Source: Sphingomonas parva (ex Maeng et al. 2020)
GTDB taxonomy: Bacteria > Pseudomonadota > Alphaproteobacteria > Sphingomonadales > Sphingomonadaceae
Assembly: GCF_004564275.1 (NCBI RefSeq)
Contig: NZ_SPDV01000020.1
Location: 1 to 64,000, forward strand
Length of the DNA stretch: 64,000 bases
Direction: 5' to 3'
Position 1 is the stretch's first letter. Each line of letters opens with the position of its first letter. The position numbers and the translations under genes were made by a program. Of this stretch, positions 6,878 to 13,754 are shown in pieces. The notes beneath the pieces were generated by a model. That model searched no databases. It worked only from the letters and a program-made list of their open reading frames with translations, and was not told the origin of the DNA.

Positions 6878-7058
6878 GTCTCTTTCCTCCAGCTTCGTGT
6901 CGAACGCGGAACGAGGCCGCCGGTTCAACGGCAAAGCCGACGCACCCGTATTGTTACGTAACCGCCGGTTGACCGGCGTTAAGCACGGCCGGGCGATCAC
7001 CCGCGTGCGCTCGGGGGAGCGCGAGGCGGCCGAGGGCCGGTCGGGGGGAGCAGGACCT

Positions 7059-9023
7059 TTGTGGAGCGCGTTCGATTCGGCGGAGCCACGCGTTCCGGGG
7101 GAGCGGTCGCTGCTGCACGAGCAGTTCCGCATCCTCGCCGCCCAAATCCCCTTCATGTACGCGTTGATGTTCGTCGACGCCTGCTTCCTCAGCTTCGCGA
7201 TCTACGAGAAGGTGCCGGTTGCGCAGAGCCTCGGCGTGCCGGCGCTGCTCGTCCTCGCCGCGCTGGTCCGGGCCATGTTCTGGCTGCGCCGCCGCGACGC
7301 GCATCTCTCCGAGGCGAGGATCGCCCGCTATCTGAAGGTCACGCTCGTCACGGCGGGCGTGCTGAGCTTCGGCTTCGGCGGATGGGGCCTGCTGCTGTTC
7401 GAGAGCGCTGACCTGACCCAGCGCACCTGCATCGCGCTCTACATCTTCATCGGCGCGATCAGCTGCTCCTATTGCCTGCAGGCGCTGCCCGGCGCGGCGC
7501 GGCTGGTTCTCTATTGCGGGGCGGCGCCGATGACCTTGCGCCTGCTGGTCGGCAACGACCTTCTGCTGATCGGCCTTGGCGTCGACATGCTGCTGGTCAT
7601 GCTGCTGATCCTGCGCCTGCTCGGCACCAGCTATTCGGGCTTCGTCGAGGTCGTCTCGTCGCGCACGACCGTGATCGCCGAGCGCGAGCGCGCCCGCGAC
7701 GCCGAGCAGCGCGCGCACCAGCTCGCTTACCATGATCCGCTCACCGGTCTCGCCAACCGGCGTGCGCTCAGCGACCATATCGATCGCGCCCTCGCGGCAC
7801 CGGCCGGGGGGGCCGGAGTCGGGCTGCTGGTCATCGATCTCGACCGCTTCAAGATCGTCAACGACGTGCACGGCCACCCGGTCGGCGACGCGCTGCTGCG
7901 CGACGTCGCGGCGCGGCTGATCGAGCTCGATGCCGAGAATGCCCGCGCCTTCCGGCTCGGCGGCGACGAGTTTGCGATCGTGGTCGAACCCGGCCCCGAC
8001 GACAAGGACGCGCCGCGGCGGCTCGGCCGGCAGATCGTCCAGCATCTGGGCGAGCCGTTCGCGATCGGCGGGGTCATCCACCATATCGGGGCCAGCGTCG
8101 GCATCTCCCTCTTCCCGCACGACGCGCAGGATCGCGAGACGCTGATGCGCCGCGCCGACATCGCCCTCTACCGCGCCAAGGAAGCCGGCCGGAACCAGCA
8201 TCGCTGCTTCGAGCCGCTGATGGACGCCGAGATCAAGCGGCGCTCTGTCCTGGAGCGGCAGCTGCGCGAGGCGATCCTGGCCGACGATCTCCGGCCGCAT
8301 TTTCAGCCGCTGGTCGAGCTCGCCGGCCGGCGCCTGGTCGGCTTCGAACTGCTCGCCCGCTGGCCGCGGCGCGACGGCCTCAACATCGGCCCCGACCAGT
8401 TCATCCCGATCGCGGAGGAAAGCGGGCTGATCAACGAGCTGATGCTGCAATTGCTCGAGCGCGGCTGCCGCGAGGCGCTGGGCTGGGACGCGCGCCTCAG
8501 CATCGCGATCAACATCTCCCCGGTCCAGCTCAAGGACCCATGGCTCGCGCAGAAGATCCTGGCGACGCTCACCCGGCTCGCCTTCCCGCCGCAGCGGCTG
8601 GAGATCGAGGTCACCGAGAATGCGCTGATCGTCGATGCGGACAATGCGCGCAGGACGATCGAATCGCTGAAGAACCAGGGCATCAAGGTCGCCCTCGACG
8701 ATTTCGGCACCGGCTATTCGTCGATGCACCATCTGCGCATGCTGGCCTTCGACAAGATCAAGATCGACCGCTCCTTCATCCAGGCGCTCGACACCGATCC
8801 CGATGCGAGGAAGATCGTGCGGGCGATCGTCGGCCTCGCCTCGAGCTTCGATCTGCCGGTGGTGGCGGAAGGGATCGAGACCGAGGCCGCGGCGCAGACG
8901 CTGGCGGCGCTCGGCTGCTCCTACGGCCAGGGTTATCTGTTCGGCGCGGCGCTCTCGGCCGAGCAATTGTGGCGCGAGTGGCTGGTCCCGGTCACCCGCG
9001 GCGGCGAGCTCGGCACCGCCTGA
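7059..9023 (+). CDS. Membrane-bound GGDEF/EAL cyclic-di-GMP enzyme
   Basis: About 654 residues from a TTG at 7059, which has a GGGGGGAG ribosome site 8 bases upstream; the open frame extends in frame to 6825, but that would run across the divergent promoter. An N-terminal hydrophobic region of several membrane helices (about residues 30-200) is followed by a GGDEF domain with intact RLGGDEFAIV (301-305) and an EAL domain. The EAL motif reads FELLARW (Glu430). The other phosphodiesterase motifs (EVTENALI, DDFGTGYSS, KIDRSFIQ, VVAEGIETE) are present. It could therefore both make and degrade cyclic di-GMP at the inner membrane. The signal sensed is unknown. Confidence 0.88.
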   Translation: MWSAFDSAEPRVPGERSLLHEQFRILAAQIPFMYALMFVDACFLSFAIYEKVPVAQSLGVPALLVLAALVRAMFWLRRRDAHLSEARIARYLKVTLVTAGVLSFGFGGWGLLLFESADLTQRTCIALYIFIGAISCSYCLQALPGAARLVLYCGAAPMTLRLLVGNDLLLIGLGVDMLLVMLLILRLLGTSYSGFVEVVSSRTTVIAERERARDAEQRAHQLAYHDPLTGLANRRALSDHIDRALAAPAGGAGVGLLVIDLDRFKIVNDVHGHPVGDALLRDVAARLIELDAENARAFRLGGDEFAIVVEPGPDDKDAPRRLGRQIVQHLGEPFAIGGVIHHIGASVGISLFPHDAQDRETLMRRADIALYRAKEAGRNQHRCFEPLMDAEIKRRSVLERQLREAILADDLRPHFQPLVELAGRRLVGFELLARWPRRDGLNIGPDQFIPIAEESGLINELMLQLLERGCREALGWDARLSIAINISPVQLKDPWLAQKILATLTRLAFPPQRLEIEVTENALIVDADNARRTIESLKNQGIKVALDDFGTGYSSMHHLRMLAFDKIKIDRSFIQALDTDPDARKIVRAIVGLASSFDLPVVAEGIETEAAAQTLAALGCSYGQGYLFGAALSAEQLWREWLVPVTRGGELGTA

Positions 9024-9090: not shown

Positions 9091-9216
9091 TCAGATCGCC
9101 TTGTCGCCGGCCTCGCCGACCGACTTGATATCCTCGCCGGCGCCCTTGACGGTGTTGCAGGCGCCGAGCGCCATCGTGGTGGTGAGGGCGAAAAGACAAA
9201 GAAGCTTACGGACCAT
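9091..9216 (-). CDS. Entericidin A/B family small lipoprotein
   Basis: 41 residues: MVRKLLCLFALTTTMALGAC, then NTVKGAGEDIKSVGEAGDKA. The signal and lipobox (LGAC) followed by NTVKGAGEDI are the hallmark of the entericidin/EcnAB family of tiny membrane lipoproteins, linked in enterobacteria to stationary-phase lysis and envelope stress. An AGGAG ribosome site lies upstream. About 65 bases upstream of the start, a GGAAC-N17-CATT sequence on the minus strand (9279-9304) resembles an EcfG promoter with one mismatch in the -10 element. That would fit a stress-induced peptide but is weak evidence. Confidence 0.85.
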   Translation of the reverse strand: MVRKLLCLFALTTTMALGACNTVKGAGEDIKSVGEAGDKAI

Positions 9217-9368
9217 GACAATTCTCCTGGGGCTACTCCAAGCGCATCGCTCGCGTTCGGTGTGCTGGCGGAGGCCTAAATGCCCGCTGGCGCGCGATGG
9301 TTCCGGCGCCGCACGGAGATGGGGGATGCCGGGCAGCGCCCGCGCCGGCAGGCGCCGGTCCGCAGACC

Positions 9369-9514
9369 AAAAAAAAGCCGCTCCGGCGGGAGCGGCGTCG
9401 CAGGGGGGGCCAGACGAATTTGAGCCCGGAGGCGCCACCGGGGGGGGGGAGGTTGGCGCGTCCGGGCTCATTTTCTGGATAGCGAGAGCGGGGGGGCAAA
9501 AGGTCACTATCCGA
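9369..9514 (-). ncRNA. Candidate EcfG-dependent C-rich small RNA
   Basis: Predicted to run from about 9514 to the end of a T8 run (A8 on the plus strand) at 9369, about 146 nt. Three stem-loops expose runs of cytosine. Hairpin 1 (9477-9512, GGATAG/CTATCC) has C7 in the loop. Hairpin 2 (9422-9469, 9-bp GAGCCCGGA/TCCGGGCTC plus an inner GCGCC stem) has C10. Hairpin 3 (9396-9416, CGTC/GACG) has C7. A textbook terminator (GCCGCTCC/GGAGCGGC plus T8, 9369-9396) follows. Short open frames cross the region but look random. C-rich loops are the binding element of alphaproteobacterial sRNAs that block G-rich ribosome sites. The role here is inferred. Confidence 0.75.
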
Positions 9515-9521
9515 AGTGCAC

Positions 9522-9546
9522 AACGTCGATGCAGTGCCCGGGTTCC
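9522..9546 (-). promoter_or_regulatory. EcfG (general stress sigma factor) promoter of the C-rich sRNA
   Basis: On the minus strand the sequence is GGAAC, 16 bases, CGTT, a perfect match to the EcfG consensus GGAAC-N16/17-CGTT. The predicted start, about 7 bases downstream, falls just before the first sRNA hairpin. An A/T-tract region (about 9554-9590) lies upstream. Confidence 0.8.
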
Positions 9547-9636: not shown

Positions 9637-9810
9637 GTGCCCAAACCGCCCGAGGCGACCCCGCACAGCGACATCGACGGCATCCACCGCGACGAGAAGA
9701 AGAACATCGACAGCGCCAACGAGGCCGGTCAGGACAGCAGCGATCTCCAGAAGGCGCACGAGGAATCCGCGGCGCGACCGCCCTATAGCGACGACAAGGG
9801 CGGCGGCTGA
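9637..9810 (+). CDS. Small hydrophilic protein of unknown function
   Basis: 57 residues from a GTG at 9637 with AGGAG 7 bases upstream. The product has no hydrophobic segment and is very rich in Asp, Glu, Lys, Ser and Asn (e.g. IHRDEKKNIDSANEAGQDSS), so it is probably disordered, like many small desiccation or stress peptides. It is divergent from the EcfG-driven sRNA and adjacent to the stress locus, so a stress role is plausible. No clear promoter of its own was identified beyond a degenerate GAAAC...CGGTT pair. Codon use is unremarkable. Confidence 0.65.
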   Translation: MPKPPEATPHSDIDGIHRDEKKNIDSANEAGQDSSDLQKAHEESAARPPYSDDKGGG

Positions 9811-9912: not shown

Positions 9913-11493
9913 TCAGTGCCTGTCGGCCTTGTCGACCACGGCGATGTTGAGCGCGTAGCGGCCGATCTCGGTATCGCGGTCGATACTGGTGCGCAGCTGG
10001 CGCGACAGGCCGGTGACGATCCGCTCGAACCGGTCGCTCAATTTCTCGTCGCACGACACCTGGCCGCGCAGGCTGTCCGATTCGAGGACGAGCTCCGCCA
10101 GGGCAGGATTCGCGTTGCCGCCAGTGAGCGCGATCTGGACCGAGCTCGCGCCGCAGAACATGGCGAATTCGACGACCTCGGTGACCAGGAAGGCGACCGA
10201 GACGGCGACGTCCTGGGTCGCGTAATAAGGCTCGAGGTCGAGACGGATCGTCATCGACGCGGCCGAGCCCGGCGCCGTGGCGCGCAGGTTGGCGGCAAGC
10301 TCGGAGACGAGCGGCTTCAGGGCGACGCCGCGATTTTCCTCGAGCTCGGCATAATGGTTGCGGTGGACCACGGCGAGCGCGTCCACCCGCCGCTGGATCG
10401 AGGCGTAGGCGGCGGCGGCCGCCTCGTTGGGCGAGCCGCGCGAATGGATGTTGAGCAGCGACGCCACGACCTGCAGGTTGTTCTTCACCCGGTGATGGAC
10501 CTCGCGGACGAGCTTGGTCTGCCGCTCCACCGCCGCCTCGAGCTCCGCTTCGTGGCGGGCAACAGTCTGGGCGACGCCTTCGAAGGCGAGGCCGAGATCC
10601 GAAATCTCCCGCGCCGGCGAGGCGATGCGCGGCAGGCCGAACTCGCGATCGCCGGGCTGATAGGCCGAGACGTGGCGCTGCATCCGGACCAAGGGCCGCA
10701 GCAGCAGGCGATCGACGACCAGCCAGCCGATCACCGAGGCGGCCAGCCACATCAGCACGGGGAGGAGGATCAGCAGCCCCTCGAGCGGAGTGATCGGGAC
10801 GGCGCTGGCCGAGATGTCGAGCCGCAGCTGGCCGTCGGCCAGCGCTTCGGAGGCGTTGACGGTATGGACGAACGGACCGTCCTCATATTCGTCGCGCAGC
10901 ACCATGCTGCGGCCATCCTGCCTGAGCGTCAGATCGAAGGCGGTGGAGGTGCCGGCGATATAGGTGATGCCGGAAAGCGTCTCGCGCGAATATTCGGCGA
11001 CGCCTTCGAGCAGACCGGTGTCGCCGAAGACGAACAGCTGGAGCGCGCGACCGTCGGCGGTGATCCGGACGATGCCTTTGCCCGCGGGCCCGGTCCGGGG
11101 AAGCGGCGGACGGAAGCCCCGGCTCGCGCAGCGCACCTCGCGCCCCTGGGCGATCAGCGCGTACCGTCCGGGATAAGGCGCGTTCTCGAGCCGGGTCAGC
11201 GTCCGTTCGCAGACCCGCGAGCCCGGCGGCGCGACGGCGATCGCCCCGCCGGCAGTGCCGATGGTGATCTCCGCGCGGGTGAGGTTGCTGCTGATCCGCT
11301 GCGCCTTCACCTCGAGCCGCGAGATGGTCTGATCGGTGCGGTCCTGATTCTTCTGCTGCGCGCTCTGAATCGAGGCGAGGATCGCGACCAGGCCGAGCGG
11401 GAAGAGGGCGAGGCTGAGGATGAGCAGCATCTTCGCGCCCGTCGAGAGGCCCGCGAAGCGCGCTGCGATCCAGCCCTGTCTGTCTGCGTTCAC
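9913..11493 (-). CDS. phyP: PhyP-like sensor histidine kinase with degenerate ATPase domain
   Basis: 526 residues. Two membrane helices (about 20-42 and 238-262) flank an extracytoplasmic sensor region, followed by a HAMP-like segment and a HisKA_2 dimerisation domain with REVHHRVKNNLQVVASLL (His333). The catalytic domain lacks normal ATP-binding boxes: the N-box position reads LVTEVVEFAM and no DxGxG or G2 glycine motif is visible. This agrees with Sphingomonas PhyP, which sits beside phyR and acts as a negative regulator, probably a phosphatase of PhyR. It starts 28 bases after the nepR stop, so the two form an operon divergent from phyR. Function is by homology and context. Confidence 0.85.
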   Translation of the reverse strand: MNADRQGWIAARFAGLSTGAKMLLILSLALFPLGLVAILASIQSAQQKNQDRTDQTISRLEVKAQRISSNLTRAEITIGTAGGAIAVAPPGSRVCERTLTRLENAPYPGRYALIAQGREVRCASRGFRPPLPRTGPAGKGIVRITADGRALQLFVFGDTGLLEGVAEYSRETLSGITYIAGTSTAFDLTLRQDGRSMVLRDEYEDGPFVHTVNASEALADGQLRLDISASAVPITPLEGLLILLPVLMWLAASVIGWLVVDRLLLRPLVRMQRHVSAYQPGDREFGLPRIASPAREISDLGLAFEGVAQTVARHEAELEAAVERQTKLVREVHHRVKNNLQVVASLLNIHSRGSPNEAAAAAYASIQRRVDALAVVHRNHYAELEENRGVALKPLVSELAANLRATAPGSAASMTIRLDLEPYYATQDVAVSVAFLVTEVVEFAMFCGASSVQIALTGGNANPALAELVLESDSLRGQVSCDEKLSDRFERIVTGLSRQLRTSIDRDTEIGRYALNIAVVDKADRH

Positions 11494-11520: not shown

Positions 11521-11724
11521 TTAGCCAAGCTTGCCCAGTAGATCGAGAAGATCCGGCGGGATGTCCTCGTTGATGGTCTGCTGATACGCGGCGCGCAGCG
11601 CGTGGCCGACCTCGGGCGTGTTCGCGCGCTTCTTGCTGGCTCTCGACTCGTTCCGATTGGCGCCGTCCGGGGAAGATGCCGCCCTGCGCCGGCGCTCGCC
11701 ATCCTGTTCGTCTGCGAAAGTCAA
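11521..11724 (-). CDS. nepR: Anti-sigma factor NepR
   Basis: 67 residues from a TTG at 11724 with GAGGGG about 9 bases upstream. After a charged N-terminal tail, the C-terminal half reads VGHALRAAYQQTINEDIPPD then LLDLLGKLG, the two-helix NepR core. NepR holds EcfG inactive until phosphorylated PhyR captures it. The gene is divergent from phyR and leads the nepR-phyP operon. A near-consensus EcfG promoter lies upstream, so its own target sigma factor probably controls it. Confidence 0.92.
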   Translation of the reverse strand: MTFADEQDGERRRRAASSPDGANRNESRASKKRANTPEVGHALRAAYQQTINEDIPPDLLDLLGKLG

Positions 11725-12021: not shown

Positions 12022-12816
12022 ATGTCGCTTGGTCAGGAACTCGCCCCCCATCTTCCCTTTCTGCGGCGCTACGCCCGCGCCCTGACGGGTAGCCAGGGGC
12101 ACGGCGATGCGTTCGTCCGGGCGACCCTGGAGGCGATCGTCGCGGCGCCGGGCGATTTCCCGCGCGACGTCGATCCGCGGCTCGGCCTCTACCGCACCTT
12201 TCACGCGATCTGGTCGTCGGCCAATATCGAGGAAGATCCGGGCGCGAGCTCGGGCGTCGATCCCGAGAGCATCGCCCAGGCGCGCCTCGCCCGGATCACG
12301 CCGCTGTCCCGCCAGGCGCTGCTGCTGACCGCGATGGAAGGCTTCACCCCGGAGGACGCCGGCTACCTGATCGGCGCGCAGCCGAACGAGGTCGAGCGGC
12401 TGGTCGCCGAGGCGCTGGCCGAGATCGAGCGCCAGACCCGCGCCGAAGTGCTGATCATCGAGGACGAGCCGATCATCGCGATGGACATCGAGACGATCGT
12501 CCGCGACCTCGGCCATTCGGTTACCGGCGTCGCCGTGACCCGCGACGAGGCGGTCGCCCAGGCGATCGCGCGCCGCCCCGGCCTGGTCCTCGCCGACATC
12601 CAGCTCGCCGACGACAGCTCGGGCATCGACGCCGTCAAGGACATCCTGCAGGAATTCCAGGTGCCGGTGATCTTCATCACCGCCTTCCCGGAGCGGCTGC
12701 TGACCGGCGAGCGGCCGGAGCCGACCTTCCTGATCACCAAGCCGTTCCAGCGCTCGACCGTGAAGGCGGCGATCGCCCAGGCGCTGTTCTTCGATCAGGC
12801 GACGATTCCCGCCTGA
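12022..12816 (+). CDS. phyR: Response regulator PhyR with sigma-factor-like domain
   Basis: 264 residues. The N-terminal half (about 1-140) imitates an ECF sigma factor: a sigma2-like segment (LPFLRRYARALTGSQGHGDA) and a sigma4-like segment (SRQALLLTAMEGFTPEDAGY). The C-terminal half is a receiver domain with EDEPIIAMD and the phospho-acceptor Asp192 in LVLADIQLAD, plus the conserved Thr in VIFITAF and Lys in FLITKPF. When phosphorylated the sigma-like domain binds NepR and frees EcfG. It is divergent from nepR and directly upstream of the small peptide-ecfG unit. The ATG follows AGGAGTCG. Confidence 0.96.
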   Translation: MSLGQELAPHLPFLRRYARALTGSQGHGDAFVRATLEAIVAAPGDFPRDVDPRLGLYRTFHAIWSSANIEEDPGASSGVDPESIAQARLARITPLSRQALLLTAMEGFTPEDAGYLIGAQPNEVERLVAEALAEIERQTRAEVLIIEDEPIIAMDIETIVRDLGHSVTGVAVTRDEAVAQAIARRPGLVLADIQLADDSSGIDAVKDILQEFQVPVIFITAFPERLLTGERPEPTFLITKPFQRSTVKAAIAQALFFDQATIPA

Positions 12817-13073: not shown

Positions 13074-13754
13074 ATGACCGAATTCAGTGCATCCTATCAT
13101 GACGGGGCCAGCTTGAGCCATACTCCTGCATCTGCCGACGAGATCGACGAGGTTCGTCCGGAACCGGTCCCGCTTCCCGACAACGAGTTCAAGGACCAGC
13201 TCGCGCAGGTCATTCCGCATCTGCGCGCGTTCGGGCGATCCCTCTCGGGAAGCCGCGACCTGGCCGACGATCTCGTCCAGGAGACGCTGCTGAAGGCCTG
13301 GGCGGCGCGCAAGCGCTTCCAGGCCGGCACCAACATGCGTGCCTGGACCTTCATCATCCTCAGGAACCTGTTCCTCAGCCAGATGCGCCGCGCGCGCTTC
13401 AAGGGCGAGTGGGACGAGATCACCGCGTCGAAGATGCTGGCGGCGCCGGCGAGCCAGGACCGGCACGTCGAGCTTTCCGACATGCAGCGCGCGCTGCTCC
13501 ACCTCCCGCAGCCGCAGCGCGAGGCGCTGATCCTGGTCGGCGCCGGCGGCTTCGCCTACGAGGAAGCGGCCGAGATCTGCGGCTGCGCGGTCGGCACGAT
13601 CAAGAGCCGGGTCGCCCGCGGCCGGGTCGCGCTCGAGAACCTTCTCGCCGAAGGCAAATTGCCGTCGCGGCGCGAGCACGAGACCGACGGCACGTCGGCG
13701 CTGCAGAGCATCATGAGCGAGGTCGAGGACCTCAGCCGCGACCGCGACCTCTAA
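13074..13754 (+). CDS. ecfG: General stress response sigma factor EcfG
   Basis: 226 residues. Region 2 ([20 protein letters not shown], then KAWAARKRFQAGTNMRAWTF) and region 4 (LPQPQREALILVGAGGFAYE, then EAAEICGCAVGTIKSRVARG) are those of the ECF15/EcfG group. EcfG directs RNA polymerase to GGAAC-N16/17-CGTT promoters. The N-terminal 35 residues are an acidic extension. Two further ATG codons are not far downstream, but 13074 gives the full extension. A GGCGCGCG/CGCGCGCC hairpin (13046-13063) lies just upstream of the start and might affect translation. Confidence 0.94.
   Translation: MTEFSASYHDGASLSHTPASADEIDEVRPEPVPLPDNEFKDQLAQVIPHLRAFGRSLSGSRDLADDLVQETLLKAWAARKRFQAGTNMRAWTFIILRNLFLSQMRRARFKGEWDEITASKMLAAPASQDRHVELSDMQRALLHLPQPQREALILVGAGGFAYEEAAEICGCAVGTIKSRVARGRVALENLLAEGKLPSRREHETDGTSALQSIMSEVEDLSRDRDL

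Follow-up and report, generated by a model that had tools for sequence, protein, structure and literature searches.

The general stress locus of Sphingomonas parva is accompanied by a member of a real, conserved family of structured RNAs in Sphingomonadaceae, referred to here as type A RNA. With a probability of about 0.65, we consider this RNA to be an EcfG-induced small RNA (sRNA) acting in trans, whose C loops would pair with G tracts and which would be functionally similar to GsrN of Caulobacter crescentus.

A structured RNA under an EcfG promoter beside the general stress genes

The element lies in a window of 64,000 nucleotides (the whole stretch of DNA that was analysed), where the sequence and fold of the minus strand from 9546 to 9369 disclosed a promoter and a strongly folding RNA next to the general stress genes. 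The sRNA is situated within about 4.3 kb of the phyR-nepR-ecfG locus.

9522..9546, minus strand: EcfG-type promoter GGAAC-N16-CGTT, an exact match, with GGAAC (-35) at 9546-9542 and CGTT (-10) at 9525-9522
9410..9515, minus strand: conserved core of the type A small RNA, from covariance models R1 and R2
9477..9512, minus strand: hairpin 1, a 9-bp stem with the 18-nt loop CCUUUUG-C7-GCUC, C7 at 9496-9490
9421..9470, minus strand: hairpin 2, an 18-bp interrupted stem with loop C10 at 9449-9440
9403..9409, minus strand: third C7, within a weak stem that has 4 bp in the centroid structure
9369..9396, minus strand: intrinsic terminator in this genome, GCCGCTCC-CGCC-GGAGCGGC-T8, from sequence and fold
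9913..11493, minus strand: HisKA_2/HWE sensor kinase (Pfam), PhyK-like by position
11521..11724, minus strand: NepR anti-sigma factor (Pfam PF18557, E 2.9e-7), start codon approximate
12022..12816, plus strand: PhyR response regulator (Pfam PF22029, PF22233, PF00072)
13074..13754, plus strand: sigma factor (Pfam sigma-70 regions 2 and 4, PhyR_sigma2) that we take to be EcfG from its position and from known biology

The sRNA-like element that an initial annotation of this DNA had placed under an exact EcfG promoter is borne out by sequence, fold and conservation, and the terminator said to end the minus-strand RNA is present at 9396-9369. The RNA is predicted to start near 9515, about 6 nt past CGTT. 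As a 148-nt RNA (9516-9369) it folds with -69.1 kcal/mol versus -43.5 +/- 3.2 kcal/mol for shuffled sequences (z -7.9), and none of 200 shuffles was as stable as the native sequence. The annotation had also drawn three exposed C loops. C7, C10 and C7 do occur here, with mean unpaired probabilities of 0.88 (9496-9490), 0.99 and 0.73 (9409-9403), respectively; the third is weakly held and not conserved, a C run of at least 6 within 60 nt past hairpin 2 being found at 4 of the 62 loci compared below, this one included. Single C or G runs of at least 7 are not rare (11 expected per window, 6 seen), and in 30 first-order Markov simulations three same-base runs of at least 7 never started within 150 nt of each other.

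Rfam 15 at the gathering threshold returned nothing at the sRNA locus, where the model of ar14, an alphaproteobacterial sRNA family in Rfam, scored 14 bits versus a gathering score of 58.8. The sole Rfam match in the window is a terC RNA (RF03067; 55928-55988, 63.4 bits), distant from the sRNA. Divergent from the sRNA runs a plus-strand GTG-started ORF (9637-9810), whose charged 57-aa product has no Pfam match.

Conservation and covariation of the type A RNA

Comparison of the region by BLASTN gave a match in 26 of 60 genomes, namely S. parva itself, 24 out of 25 further members of its genus and one genome of another genus, and no match in the 24 genomes from other families of the order. Among these 26 close sequences the promoter spacer and the flanks vary, and GGAAC, hairpin 1 (C6-8) and hairpin 2 (C5-13) are kept. 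The covariance search in sphingomonad genomes that the annotation had proposed revealed a conserved family: a model built from the 26 sequences matched 109 of 298 GTDB Sphingomonadaceae genomes in 35 of 91 genera, counted at E 0.01 with weak matches down to 29 bits included. The conserved unit of the type A RNA is hairpins 1 and 2. Carriers among the matches listed by an exact-pattern scan belong to Sphingomonas, Sphingosinicella, Stakelama, Sphingomicrobium and Allosphingosinicella. In a draw of 297 genomes from the order, whose share of other families is not given, a broader covariance model matched 100, each one a member of Sphingomonadaceae. Outside the family, R2 yielded no convincing match in 337 genomes of the class, which may or may not include gsrN carriers; four matches there (E 3e-4 to 0.05) were dropped, and GGAAC-N16-CGTT is absent from their 240-nt slices. 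In a further alphaproteobacterial family, a hairpin with a C7 loop and, after it, a GGCCCGG hairpin were noticed without a visible EcfG promoter (L213, genome G602, around position 1500).

The 62 loci compared comprise 26 close loci and 36 family loci, the latter being a single locus from each of 34 further genera plus the two copies in a second genome, G262. L062 (34 bits, loop 1 without a C run) was excluded from A4 and retained among the 62. The promoter reads N16-CGTT exactly at 45 loci and N17-CGTT at 2; at 14, GGAAC is present among the preceding 50 nt and that -10 is lacking, and none was found at 1. The second copy in G262 (L095, 6048-6145, plus strand) is type A-like, with other stems, the same UUUUG-C7-GCUC loop and an EcfG promoter; the stress locus is not nearby and no entericidin gene accompanies it. 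At L330 (G076) the stress locus and entericidin are present and the sRNA is not visible.

Varying stems around constant C loops, the pattern named beforehand for a functional RNA, are what these loci display. In a 42-sequence alignment, whose covariation is somewhat inflated and leaning to structure because it was fitted to the model, all 27 pairs are compensated by double changes (9/9 in hairpin 1, 18/18 in hairpin 2). The promoter and two C loops are kept across the 62 loci. Paired cells amount to 96.2% of this alignment (98.9% in hairpin 1, 94.7% in hairpin 2) versus 31-44% when slid; double-change cells number 149 versus 29 in shuffled alignments, and none of 500 shuffles reached the observed values. 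An unfitted MAFFT alignment of the 26 close sequences, in which hairpin 1 is nearly invariant, holds double changes in 5 of the 27 pairs, all in hairpin 2, and the change of stem sequence across the family loci is visible by eye. G-U cells in the type A stems exceed A-C cells (45 versus 18), which favours the minus strand as the RNA strand.

C loops and terminators across loci

At 48 of the 62 loci, the C run of greatest length in the hairpin-1 part comprises exactly 7 residues, while the hairpin-2 part has a longest C run of 4 to 13 at 61 loci and none at 1. Of the 60 distinct sequences, 58 carry a C run of at least 6 in their 5' part, and in 45 loop 1 reads UUUUG-C6..8-GCU. Because the C length is mostly fixed in loop 1 and free in loop 2, our comparison suggests that loop 1 may be the constrained seed.

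Directly 3' of hairpin 2, a T run of at least 4 was found at 33 of the 62 loci; a separate downstream terminator takes its place at 4 (this one included), and the script recognised neither at 25. At roughly half of the loci, hairpin 2 with its U tail is likely to terminate the RNA, and in S. parva a second terminator follows.

Candidate targets

The following neighbour had been put forward as a first target and was tested:

7059..9023, plus strand: GGDEF/EAL gene (Pfam)

Its TTG start with a G-rich ribosome site is real (G6AG at 7043-7050 before the in-frame TTG at 7059), while its role as a target proved unsupported, since neither the adjacency nor the G6 is conserved. Matches to this gene at E 1e-100 are present in 20 of 26 genus genomes. 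In only two of the 25 other genus genomes, G014 and G015, does a close ortholog (74% identity) adjoin the sRNA, and the run in both is G4 versus G6 here; elsewhere the match lies on another contig or far away, a comparison limited by fragmented assemblies.

No peroxidase-family match was obtained in this genome. Absence of katG extends to four others of the 26 genus genomes, and all five genomes without katG carry the sRNA. The katG leader was readable in 20 of the 21 relatives that possess the gene (L254 gave no start); in all of these 20, the longest stretch of G lying no more than 25 nt from the start measures 2-3, and G5 occurs within 150 nt in two of them (L238, L246). The absence of katG here and the missing G tracts at its start in relatives make it an implausible target of the sRNA.

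The 12-nt complement of loop 1 has a single exact site in the whole genome, which is the sRNA gene itself, so that any pairing would depend on shorter tracts of G; one-mismatch sites number 24 versus 32 for the reversed control. The search for G-rich ribosome sites advocated in the annotation yielded no enrichment. Among 333 genes predicted by a crude gene caller in 463 kb of this genome (20 stretches and the window), a G run of at least 5 precedes the start by no more than 25 nt in 12, versus 9 and 11 in two 25-nt windows further upstream; the counts for C runs in the same three windows are 8, 4 and 3. A share of about 3.6% of sampled genes with a G tract near the start is too unspecific to name a target, and the broad repressor proposed in the annotation is no more than a possibility in view of these counts. 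Across the loop-1 complement, katG, the GGDEF/EAL gene and G-rich ribosome sites, no conserved target was found.

The entericidin tandem and alternative readings

Downstream of the sRNA lies a small lipoprotein gene with a promoter of its own:

9091..9216, minus strand: entericidin, 41-aa lipoprotein (Pfam PF08085, E 9.5e-6; the scanned translation carried one extra codon in front)
9279..9304, minus strand: EcfG-like promoter of entericidin, GGAAC-N17-CATT, from sequence

Together the sRNA and the entericidin gene would constitute a module of two EcfG-driven outputs in tandem, located in most cases beside the stress genes. At 23 of the 36 family loci the fetched stretch of about 12 kb also contains PhyR, EcfG and a related kinase, and at 13 the stress genes fall outside it. 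The CATT variant of the -10 element recurs before entericidins and before the type B RNAs described below, which gives a hint that the EcfG -10 may be wider in this family.

The same tandem allows the element to be read in cis, as the 5' leader of the entericidin mRNA, structured and attenuated, with C loops or a hairpin-2 terminator that control read-through. We hold this to be rather improbable. Entericidin does lie on the same strand within 400 nt of the sRNA at 50 of the 62 loci, but at 37 of these 50 a second EcfG-like site (GGAAC-N15..18-[CGT][GA]TT, mostly CATT) stands before the lipoprotein ORF. The 13 loci without a second promoter, the gap of only 17-45 nt at the distant loci L066, L072, L077 and L091, which leaves little room for one, and the 25 of 62 loci without a clear terminator speak for a leader; in S. 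parva, by contrast, a terminator closes the RNA, 12 of the 62 loci show no entericidin (L005, L009, L010 and L016 of these near contig ends), and the L095 copy exists without it. An action as sponge or decoy, in which the C loops would sequester RNAs rich in G, other sRNAs or a protein that binds C (e.g., Rho or a cold-shock protein), appears to us just as doubtful as the leader: the pure C runs, the freely varying length of loop 2 and the lack of an extended loop-1 complement elsewhere in the genome would agree with it, whereas the length and flanks that loop 1 mostly keeps (45/60) suit a sequence seed better than a bulk binder of C.

Two further readings carry very little weight. A short peptide might start at the AUG between the hairpins, which is invariant in the 26 close sequences; the C length of loop 2 takes all residues modulo 3 in these same sequences and the AUG is lost in several other genera, making a small coding gene highly improbable. 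A chance occurrence or a feature of the DNA without an RNA role (a G-rich strand, a slippage tract) could be expected in a GC-rich genome where runs of at least 7 are as common as calculated above, yet the promoter, loops and compensated stems are conserved together across genera, and such an origin is hardly credible.

Sister RNAs of types B and C

The phyR locus was inspected in 20 family genomes without a match to the type A model; PhyR was found in 18 of them, and the 18 stretches were fetched. Fifteen of these (L331-L345) carry another RNA, type B, at a distance of 0.13-1 kb from phyR and in divergent orientation to it, 12 recognised by script and three (L335, L339, L342) by eye. An example is:

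L337:6611-6718, minus strand: type B RNA

The type B promoter reads GGAAC-N16-CATT in 13 of the 15 (N17-GGTT in L331, no clear -10 in L342), and the RNA consists of a hairpin with a loop around C5-7UCCCGUCC followed by a terminator hairpin, with double changes in 10 of 25 alignment pairs. Out of 298 family genomes, 134 pass E 0.01 with the type B model and 119 were counted as strong matches at a score of at least 58 bits, the next best being 38 bits. None of the strong matches falls within the 109 type A genomes, where 43.5 would be expected if the two were independent; this exclusion is valid for strong matches only, since 9 of the 15 dropped weak matches lie in type A genomes. Because the PhyR of 17 of the 18 genomes is 55-61% identical to that of the window, the type B genomes probably represent the erythrobacter side of the family.

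Rfam at the gathering threshold gave no match in the four type B stretches scanned. The best-scoring model was RF01521 (CC1840, a Caulobacter sRNA), which matched at full length and on the same strand with 23.8 bits, far under its gathering score of 50; it was found in none of 142 genomes of the class and, among 14 control genomes, in Caulobacter vibrioides only. Weak matches of the model R3 in 6 of 142 class genomes (E 4.5e-5 or worse) were dropped, and L358 and L359 have no EcfG promoter match.

A search for an EcfG promoter combined with a C6 pattern in the 26 genus genomes, in which selection used C runs and not hairpins, yielded 12 places in 9 genomes (type C). The places were picked by eye, four unlike ones (G013, G025, G022 C25, G019) being left out; with the reversed pattern as control, 5 were obtained in 26 genomes. 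Two copies belong to this genome:

C5:5323-5384 (L395:2841-2960), minus strand: type C copy 1
C55:10452-10516 (L396:2873-2992), minus strand: type C copy 2

All 12 possess a 5' C tract (at least 4), a hairpin capped by a long C loop, and a terminator hairpin, the terminator being strong in the copies of this genome, and double changes affect 7 of 18 alignment pairs. No sRNA match was found by Rfam in the five type C stretches scanned. The type A model R2 scores up to 34 bits on type C, with E below 0.03 in 9 of the 12, and a common origin of types A and C is therefore possible.

As a tentative extension, which we regard as somewhat less probable than its opposite, EcfG of sphingomonads might drive a redundant set of C-tract sRNAs of types A, B and C with interchangeable stems. 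Types A and B would alternate at the stress locus, only the C-tract seed would be under selection, and the slippage-prone loop 2 (4-13 C) could tune target strength between lineages, the whole acting as a general post-transcriptional branch of the stress response in alphaproteobacteria.

Relation to known RNAs and proposed mode of action

CcsR and the cuckoo RNAs of alphaproteobacteria are stress sRNAs with C-rich hairpin loops, and their motif CCUCCUCC had also been named in the initial annotation. The type A RNA is distinguished from them by its EcfG promoter and entericidin neighbour versus an RpoH promoter and DUF1127; in Rhodobacter, an RpoHI/RpoHII promoter and a DUF1127 partner are reported (PMC10253847).

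According to experimental work on GsrN of C. crescentus, this sRNA is driven by sigmaT, pairs with G-rich targets through a 5' C-rich loop and activates katG (eLife 2018, PMC5869019). It comprises 106 nt with six C in the exposed loop, and its homologs are typically located near ecfG, nepR and phyR; BLASTn hits are confined to Caulobacteraceae, analogues are predicted in Rhizobiaceae and others, and no analogue is reported as apparent in Erythrobacter litoralis (PMC5869019). Compared by description, the type A RNA resembles GsrN in its stress-sigma promoter, exposed 5' C loop and position at the stress locus, and differs from it in its two C loops, the UUUUG/GCUC flanks of C7, the tandem with entericidin and the implausibility of katG as a target. 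Since promoter, 5' C loop and locus are common to both, a GsrN-like action is most likely, and the type A RNA most likely belongs functionally with the GsrN-like stress sRNAs, a grouping by description that does not imply descent. Its targets must differ from those of GsrN, because katG is missing here and shows no G tracts near the start in relatives. SuhB, reportedly an sRNA of Sphingopyxis granuli tied to catabolite repression, likewise comes from a sphingomonad and differs in that reported link.

In the open-access literature, at the level of titles and abstract beginnings and with subscription journals mostly outside the search, no EcfG-driven sRNA of sphingomonads or erythrobacters was recognised. 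Word searches in the available text of papers on the general stress response of Sphingomonas melonis and Sphingopyxis granuli found no mention of such an sRNA, and those in the available text of Zymomonas sRNA papers and an sRNA review gave no sign of such an RNA. The type A family appears to be undescribed, though an overlap with one of the Zymomonas sRNAs, which were compared through the text of the papers, is conceivable.

The trans-acting sRNA remains our preferred reading of the element. Under stress, PhyR would free EcfG, which would in turn transcribe an RNA of about 100-147 nt from 9546-9522, as anticipated from the promoter, the neighbouring genes and the known biology of the general stress response. 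As computed from fold and covariation, this RNA should form two stable hairpins with C runs in their loops. By analogy, the loops, above all loop 1 (UUUUG-C7-GCUC), may initiate base pairing with G tracts of mRNA leaders, a step in which Hfq probably assists, and this pairing might alter how well a limited number of messages are translated or how stable they are, repression and activation being both conceivable.

Implications for the alphaproteobacterial stress response

EcfG is known mainly as an activator, and it is harder to see by what route it would bring about repression. With a conserved sRNA of C loops encoded at the very locus of EcfG, and with sister RNAs at other places of the genome as well as in the sister branch, alphaproteobacteria would seem to possess a GsrN-like RNA arm as a general component of their stress response. 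The type A loci provide exact places for deletion and pull-down.
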